Under the pieces are notes generated by a model. The model searched no databases, was not told the DNA's origin, and was given only the letters and a program-made list of their open reading frames with translations. The position numbers were made by a program, and so were the translations under genes. Of a DNA stretch of 64,000 nt, positions 29,955 to 57,462 are shown one piece after another. The first letter of the stretch is position 1. Each line of letters opens with the position of its first letter. This DNA comes from Microcaldota archaeon (lineage in GTDB: Archaea > Micrarchaeota > Micrarchaeia > Micrarchaeales > Micrarchaeaceae): positions 124,001 to 188,000 of the forward strand of contig JAGWHO010000001.1 in the NCBI GenBank assembly GCA_028866715.1. Reading direction: 5' to 3'.

Positions 29955-29962
29955 ACACATAA

Positions 29963-29974
29963 CCTTTATAAAGG
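29963..29974. promoter_or_regulatory. Palindromic TATA-like element between MoxR and RpoF genes
   Basis: CCTTTATAAAGG is a perfect palindrome with a TATA core. On the minus strand it is too close to the MoxR ATG (about 9-20 bases) for a leadered start, so it may serve the plus strand or bind a regulator. A second A/T-rich element lies at 30006-30013 (ATTAAATA), 37-44 bases before the RpoF ATG at 30050. Confidence 0.35.
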
Positions 29975-30049
29975 CTGAATCCCCTAAGTATAATACTCTG
30001 GAAGCATTAAATAGCTGACAGGTAATGAAGAGGAATTTTGTGTGATTTT

Positions 30050-30993: not shown

Positions 30994-31224
30994 TTATTTT
31001 ATTAAGCTCAAGAAATCTTCTTTGGTCGTATCCGCTTGGGAGATGATCGACAACAATGTTCCTGGATCTATTTGTCTGTGATTAGGTACTACGACTATTC
31101 TCTTGCCTTGCTTCTCAAACCTTACCAAGACTATGTGGCTACCGCGCTGCCTGGATACATTGAAGTCTAATTTGGCCAGTGCCTTAACCACATCTAAAGC
31201 AGAAAGCACAGGCAACTTTGCCAT
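30994..31224 (-). CDS. hicA: HicA-type toxin (mRNA interferase)
   Basis: A 76-residue HicA/YcfA-like double-stranded RNA-binding domain with the catalytic His in 'RQRGSHIVLVR' (about residue 30) and the 'VVVPNHRQIDPGTL' turn typical of the family. It follows its antitoxin gene by 4 bases, the antitoxin-first order seen in many HicBA pairs. The pair lies between two genes that are neighbours in other archaea. Confidence 0.88.
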   Translation of the reverse strand: MAKLPVLSALDVVKALAKLDFNVSRQRGSHIVLVRFEKQGKRIVVVPNHRQIDPGTLLSIISQADTTKEDFLSLIK

Positions 31225-31228
31225 GTAA

Positions 31229-31450
31229 CTACCCTATAGATATAGTAGTCACTATCGGCAAATTACTTTTAGCCACCTTCGAATCTCTTGCTTCTTCGAG
31301 GTAGAGGTCTATGGCTTCAGATACGTTCTTCTTTGCCTCTTTGACGGTCCTGCCCTGGCTAGCTATCCCCAATTCTTCACAATAAGCAACAAAAGCGAAC
31401 TTGCCCTTTGTTATTATTATAGTGTATTTACCCTTCATCATATCGCCCAT
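31229..31450 (-). CDS. hicB: HicB-type antitoxin
   Basis: About 73 residues with the HicB partial RNase H fold: 'YTIIITKGKFAFVAYCEELG', then 'SQGRTVKEAKKNVSEAIDLYLEE'. No ribbon-helix-helix or other DNA-binding domain is attached, so autoregulation would need another element. Starts at 31450, 31441 and 31438 are possible; a minus-strand AAATAAATA near 31473-31482 lies about 25-30 bases before 31450, so I choose that one. Confidence 0.85.
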   Translation of the reverse strand: MGDMMKGKYTIIITKGKFAFVAYCEELGIASQGRTVKEAKKNVSEAIDLYLEEARDSKVAKSNLPIVTTISIG

Positions 31451-31574
31451 GAAGATATGGATAGCTGACATATTTATTTGTTTCTAGAAAGAGGCATAAT
31501 GGCATTTGAGGGATTAGGTAATAAATAGAGAAGGGGGTCTAGAAGTGCCTGGCTTAGGTAGCTGGGAGAATAGA

Positions 31575-31886
31575 TTACTCCTTAGCTGTGTTCTTTTGCG
31601 CCACTACCTTCTGCACATGAACCGCAGGGACGACAAGCCTTCTCTTTGCATTGAAGACGTTTATCTCAACAACATAGGCAGATCCTCTTACCTCTATTAC
31701 CTTGCCTACCTTGCCCCTGTACCTTGGATGTGGAATGTTCTTGAAGTTGCCCTTTGGTACTATAGCGACGCTCTCGCCTACCTTGACATCCTTGATTATG
31801 TCCCTTACGCTGAGGGCTGAAGGCTTGTGATGCCTTGCCAGGTGCCTTGTCCTTCCAACGAATAAGCCTCCTGATCTTTCCGACAT
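31575..31886 (-). CDS. rpl21e: Ribosomal protein eL21
   Basis: A 103-residue archaeal eL21: 'SERSGGLFVGRTRHLARHHK' near the N terminus, then a KOW-like beta barrel ('VAIVPKGNFKNIPHPRYRGKVG', 'VIEVRGSAYVVEI'). It is normally the first gene before rpoF-DUF655 in archaea; here it is inverted and separated by hicBA. A minus-strand TTTAAATA near 31931-31938 is its probable TATA box. The ATG at 31886 is preferred to the one at 31895. Confidence 0.92.
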   Translation of the reverse strand: MSERSGGLFVGRTRHLARHHKPSALSVRDIIKDVKVGESVAIVPKGNFKNIPHPRYRGKVGKVIEVRGSAYVVEINVFNAKRRLVVPAVHVQKVVAQKNTAKE

Positions 31887-31984
31887 TAATATCACTGAAT
31901 TAGCACTTACAATACTCTTCTGTAATATGCCTATTTAAACCCTTAGGTATCAACTTATACTGAAGCTTAATCTCAGTGAATCCT

Positions 31985-32308
31985 ATGGCAAAATCGGGTC
32001 AGATATATCCTCCGCACAAGCACGTGGTGCTCAAGCCCACATATAGAGTAGAGAACATAGTGGCAAAGGCAGAGCTCAATGTTGACCTCGACTTATACGG
32101 GCTGGCGAAGCTCTCGCATGATGTTGACTACGAGCCTGAGCAGTTCCCTGGTGCAATCTTCAAGGTTCATGAGCCAAAGGCAGCACTTCTTCTCTTCAAG
32201 AACGGAAAGATAATCTGCACGGGCGCAAGGACAAAGAAGGAGATAGAGAGGGCCATAGACCAGGCCGTCGATCTCGTCAACAAGTACCTGTCCGGAAAGG
32301 CGAAGTAG
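31985..32308 (+). CDS. tbp: Single-repeat TATA-binding protein (half-TBP)
   Basis: A 107-residue protein with one TBP repeat instead of the usual two. Residues about 20-102 match a repeat: 'VENIVAKAEL', 'DYEPEQFPGAIFKV', 'EPKAALLLFKNGKIICTGA', then the amphipathic helix 'KKEIERAIDQAVDLV'. The DNA-contact set is kept (Asn24 of NIVA, Phe54 and Phe59, Phe71, Thr79 in ICTGA). A 19-residue basic N-terminal extension precedes it, and a stop follows with no second repeat in any frame downstream. It could form a homodimer that mimics a full TBP saddle, or be a TBP-related factor beside a normal TBP encoded elsewhere. CTTATACT at 31952-31959 is a candidate TATA box. Confidence 0.85.
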   Translation: MAKSGQIYPPHKHVVLKPTYRVENIVAKAELNVDLDLYGLAKLSHDVDYEPEQFPGAIFKVHEPKAALLLFKNGKIICTGARTKKEIERAIDQAVDLVNKYLSGKAK

Positions 32309-57381: not shown

Positions 57382-57462
57382 GCCCCTGTCCACAATGATA
57401 ATATTTGACAAGGATTTAAATAGCTGTCATTCAGTATATTTTAGAAATCTCAAGGTCAGTGA

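Follow-up and report, generated by a model that had tools for sequence, protein, structure and literature searches.

The micrarchaeon studied here carries a TATA-binding protein (TBP) made of a single repeat (copy A), and it is likely that this protein is its general TBP, which would have been halved in the micrarchaeal stem, would work as a dimer and would have been re-fused in some families. To our knowledge, TBP has been assumed to be a fused repeat pair in every archaeon and eukaryote, derived from a hypothetical single-domain dimer. The gene lies in the window, the 64-kb stretch of DNA that was analysed, in a genome of 878 kb (25 contigs, 94.2% complete; order Micrarchaeales, Ca. Micrarchaeota). 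Residues 20-101 of copy A match positions 2-85 of the 85 positions of the PF00352 profile with 89.1 bits (E 1.7e-25; the curated cut-off is 22.9 bits), and a six-frame search of the genome found no further TBP repeat near the gene, in agreement with the initial annotation, which had described one complete TBP repeat in a gene that ends without a second one nearby. Copy A has all the TBP features that were tested except two tandem repeats per polypeptide (it has one repeat in 107 aa), and it is therefore a variant rather than an ordinary member of the family. Near tbp, two small adjoining ORFs on the minus strand (window positions 30994-31471) resemble, by eye, a HicA/HicB toxin-antitoxin pair.

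Table 1. Features of the tbp locus (window positions) and copy B genes of family f1 with which the ACG start is documented.
Feature	Position	Strand	Details
One-repeat TBP gene, copy A	31985..32308	+	ATG at 31985, stop at 32306-32308, 107 aa
Single PF00352 (TBP) repeat of copy A	32042..32287	+	N24, V26, F54, F71, T79 (DNA contact); E50, E52 (TFB contact)
Putative near-palindromic TATA-like element CTATTTAAACCC	31931..31942	.	between tbp and the divergent L21e gene; predicted from the sequence
Ribosomal protein L21e	31575..31895	-	head-to-head neighbour of tbp
B gene listed for the ACG start	L002, ~1435-1440 (G000:C24)		
B genes listed for the ACG start	L176, L181, L183, L185		
Further B genes listed for the ACG start	L351-L353, L355-L357, L362-L368, L370		

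The only other TBP match in this genome (contig C24, 27125-27370; six-frame search) is also a single repeat, here called copy B, which is unlinked to copy A and 52% identical to it. A two-repeat TBP elsewhere, a possibility that the initial annotation had raised, was thus not found in the 94.2% of the genome that is covered, and a comparison with sister genomes, which it had also proposed, revealed that the one-repeat TBP is typical of whole families. TBP matches were obtained in 57 of 60 relatives and in 272 of 295 genomes of a larger set. Nearly all members of our organism's own family (f1) in the 60-relative set have two unlinked matches, and several genera of the neighbouring family f2 have a single one-repeat gene. 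One-repeat TBPs characterize 15 families (f1, f2, f8-f11, f13-f15, f17, f19, f21, f22, f24 and f25), and two-repeat TBPs, with linkers of 7-16 aa, the other 11 (f3-f7, f12, f16, f18, f20, f23 and f26). A permissive search (E<=10) of nine genomes, including the single-contig G007, G008, G024, G030 and G039, detected one or two one-repeat genes in each and no two-repeat TBP, the sole extra match being one of 12.6 bits within a 581-aa ORF of G030. Since this search added no further TBP, G037, G039 (one contig) and G044 have one one-repeat TBP gene alone. The conservation of the architecture in closed genomes also rules out an assembly error, and with it the sequencing error or frameshift that the initial annotation had considered. 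Furthermore, tbp is arranged head-to-head with the L21e gene, on opposite strands, in one-repeat families (f1, f2, f8, f11, f14 and f19) and likewise in two-repeat families (f6, f12 and f20), which indicates that both forms are versions of one gene that has kept its place, and that B is a derived, unlinked copy. No virus-borne relatives of the one-repeat TBP were found in IMG/VR, and a literature search outside subscription journals and preprints found nothing on a one-repeat TBP in Micrarchaeota.

Gene number and architecture vary in some genomes. Two f11 genomes, G081 (C1) and G086 (L154-L158), have three one-repeat TBP genes each. A single-repeat TBP also occurs within the two-repeat family f6 (L153, G135:C11:137433-137675); its start resembles the N repeats of its kin and its end is slightly nearer to their C repeats, so its sequence may reflect the collapse of a double gene through recombination between repeats. 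One f1 genome with two one-repeat genes contains a two-repeat TBP as well (L005, G009:C43:2733-3251), which we rejected as micrarchaeal: its repeats are 44% identical, it is of the ordinary archaeal type and it is probably contamination.

The residues that contact and kink DNA are strongly conserved. None of N24, V26, F54 and F71 varies among 172 one-repeat sequences, 162 of which also keep T79; of the residues that the initial annotation had singled out, only Phe59 did not hold up, as this position is F, C, L or Y in relatives. E50 and E52 are also invariant in the 172 sequences. An acidic signature in the C lobe of TBP has been described as a TFB contact (PMC7221094), and by our own mapping E50/E52 (YEPE) would correspond to it. 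In addition, TFB is present as an ordinary two-cyclin protein. The AlphaFold monomer model of copy A (pLDDT 80.5, 15-row alignment) superposes over ~70 residues on one TBP lobe (rmsd 0.9-2 Å; Foldseek E 1.7e-5), and its first, central strand is unformed. In normal TBP the two repeats meet in the middle of the saddle, where the first strand of one lies paired with that of the other, so an unformed strand is what is expected in a monomer if the strand needs a partner chain. As to the polymerase, in most Micrarchaeota sampled the C-terminal part of RpoB lies in an ORF of ~600-690 aa (L241-L270; rpoB is apparently split), unlike in G165 (f22), where the rpoB ORF is of 1111 aa.

Regarding the promoters, the TATA boxes that had been noted across the window could be substantiated in related genomes, where a TATA motif has a BRE-like AAG just upstream, but not in the window itself, whose 33 upstream regions are too few for a clean motif. 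In G030, which has copies A and B, the upstream motif is WAAGC-TWTAWAWA, and in the single-gene G039 a similar WAK-TWTAWAWA was found; both are located at ~-45 to -25 and far above shuffles, and both consist of a BRE-like block adjoining a TATA box. No clear TATA motif was detected in G205. The symmetry of the TATA box was discarded as a way to discriminate one- from two-repeat genomes, since both motifs fit palindromes. Divergent gene pairs at 57412-57462, 29961-30037 and 31931-31942 of the window seemingly share near-palindromic TATA elements with BRE-like flanks, e.g. TGACAGCTATTTAAATCCTTGTCA; the element at 31931-31942 is a candidate promoter common to tbp and L21e. Such sharing would be consistent with transcription in both directions from a symmetric TBP.

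We propose that copy A acts as the general TATA-binding protein of this organism, in a form cut down to one repeat. A pair of chains would join through their first beta strands and build the saddle that is normally made by one two-repeat chain, the resulting dimer would kink the TATA box with two Phe per half, and the ordinary TFB would dock on one of two equivalent YEPEQ stirrups. Because this dimer would be symmetric, or nearly so, the direction of transcription would be set by TFB reading the BRE and not by TBP. The homodimer suggested in the initial annotation is plausible, and effectively forced in the single-gene G037, G039 and G044, where it would be A-A; in the genome studied here the existence of two paralogues makes an A-B heterodimer possible as well, and the dimers could be A-A and/or A-B (or B-B).

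A stricter version, in which the working TBP of f1 would be an obligate A-B heterodimer with A and B as two lobes encoded apart, is possible but rather doubtful. The two loci are unlinked, exactly two TBP matches are present in 28 of the 32 f1 genomes at >=90% completeness, and one A and one B were found in all eight genomes where both copies were read. The B orthologues, which keep the contact residues, form a clade common to f1 and part of f2 (100/99-100/100). However, B is missing from many f2 genera, and as A is alone in many f2 genomes, an A-A dimer must be able to function in close relatives. Copies A and B are not a split pair of N-half and C-half genes either, as neither groups with the ancient N or C repeats, and B, which keeps both the DNA and the TFB residues, gives no sign of being a one-role half. 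No clear charge complementarity was observed between A (net charge -1 to 2) and B (1 to 2).

B genes of f1 also have an unusual start. Among the 28 that were read, 20 have ACG at the start position, seven ATG and one GTG. Nearly all of the ACG genes have GGTG plus five nucleotides before the ACG and often GCN after it; the exceptions upstream are one 6-nt spacing with an ATG two codons upstream, one AGTG and one GGAG. An in-frame stop directly precedes the ACG in G002, G011 and G016. The f2 orthologues of B start with ATG or TTG, and the A genes start with ATG at a similar distance from GGTG. In 398 kb of G030, ATG is enriched after GGTGN5 (60 vs 30.5 expected) and ACG is not (17 vs 19.8 expected). 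We infer that the ACG of B is a conserved initiation codon, a candidate for a conserved non-AUG start in archaea, and it probably limits the output of B. A tuned expression of this kind, in a paralogue with conserved contacts that many f2 genera lack, would also suit a separate alternative TBP that forms B-B dimers and serves only some promoters, comparable to the several TBPs found in haloarchaea. We consider this unlikely, as the retention of B in nearly all f1 genomes exceeds what an optional factor would need.

The order of events was addressed with trees of single repeats (87 columns), which included the N and C repeats of M. jannaschii, S. acidocaldarius, P. woesei and haloarchaea. A single clade (100/98, and 98/95 with more families) takes in every micrarchaeal repeat, whether from a one-repeat protein or from either half of a double. 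Descent of the micrarchaeal doubles from the ancient two-repeat form is disfavoured: trees in which the micrarchaeal C repeats are forced to group with the ancient C are worse by 48-57 log units (AU p 0.067 and 0.015 in two trees), and forcing the N repeats with the ancient N gave an AU p of 0.041. Moreover, the N and C repeats of the micrarchaeal doubles are mostly 60-80% identical (49% in f12), compared with 40-54% in other archaea. This similarity, together with the single clade, suggests that the micrarchaeal doubles were either rebuilt from one-repeat proteins or thoroughly homogenised by gene conversion, which could mimic re-fusion. The N and C repeats of f4, f5, f7, f12, f16, f18 and f26 form their own clade (98/96) apart from those of f3, f6, f20 and f23, which suggests at least two fusions, one in each group; a constraint to a single re-fusion was not rejected (p 0.10-0.35). 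In an RpoB tree (32 rows, 623 columns) rooted on two distant outgroups, Pyrococcus and Sulfolobus, the one-repeat families are successive basal branches (a grade) and the two-repeat families are nested, with moderate support at the root (92/81, 93/86). The one- and two-repeat states require four changes on this tree, and none of 500 label shuffles was as low.

All these data favour, between the ancestral state and the secondary simplification that the initial annotation had left side by side, the latter: TBP was apparently halved in the micrarchaeal stem, through loss of half of a two-repeat protein, and in some families the gene would later have been duplicated in tandem and fused in place, giving a two-repeat TBP again. 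That the Micrarchaeota never had a fused TBP, and inherited theirs straight from the single-domain ancestor, is very improbable. One-repeat forms occupy the basal branches of the phylum, copy A is roughly as far from N as from C repeats (33-42%), and the micrarchaeal repeats may attach between the ancient N and C (AU p 0.42, a value obtained with few columns and few outgroups); nevertheless, all the TBPs examined from other archaea and eukaryotes are two-repeat, and such a relic would need Micrarchaeota to lie below all of them, contrary to established trees. It is hardly credible that copy A is accessory or defective, half of a gene truncated through decay, a frameshift or an error of assembly, with the true TBP missing from a 94% complete genome or supplied by a host (Micrarchaeota live with host archaea). 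The same, strongly conserved architecture recurs in closed genomes and in far more than a hundred relatives, the locus is syntenic, and the organism has its own TFB and RNA polymerase.

Halving followed by re-fusion, and the trans partner B, would mean that the ancient TBP duplication has been replayed in nature. Whether the micrarchaeal ancestor ran on a symmetric TBP homodimer, with asymmetry later rebuilt through at least two fusions and through the ACG-limited trans partner B, is in our judgement evenly balanced. Organisms with only single-domain TBPs, beside relatives with re-made doubles, make the origin of TBP testable in living lineages. They allow one to ask if transcription can run on a dimer of one-repeat chains, how a symmetric TBP is compatible with polarity and what is gained from fusing the repeats.

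Copy A has in common with archaeal TBP (M. jannaschii 2z8u, S. acidocaldarius 1mp9, P. woesei 1ais) the repeat fold, the DNA-contact Asn/Val/Phe/Phe/Thr, the TFB-contact glutamates, TFB itself and BRE plus TATA promoters. It differs in having one repeat per chain, which would require a partner chain, and in that both lobes of the proposed dimer would bear the TFB-type stirrup. The micrarchaeal two-repeat TBPs (f3-f7, f12, f16, f18, f20, f23 and f26) have repeats of the same clade as the one-repeat proteins and differ from these in carrying two similar repeats, apparently re-fused, in each chain. Outside the TBPs proper, a TBP-like domain is present in a DNA glycosylase. Another one has been reported in RNase HIII (Brindefalk et al. 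2013, cited in PMC8131849). Both resemble copy A in being a single TBP-type domain per chain but belong to an enzyme, with no TFB/TATA role, whereas copy A consists of such a domain on its own and falls in the TBP family proper (PF00352). Lastly, the poxvirus VITF-3 is a two-chain, promoter-bending factor of the TBP/TFIIB type, in which a TBP/TFIIB-like pair, and not two TBP halves as proposed here, forms a ring (PMC12917281).
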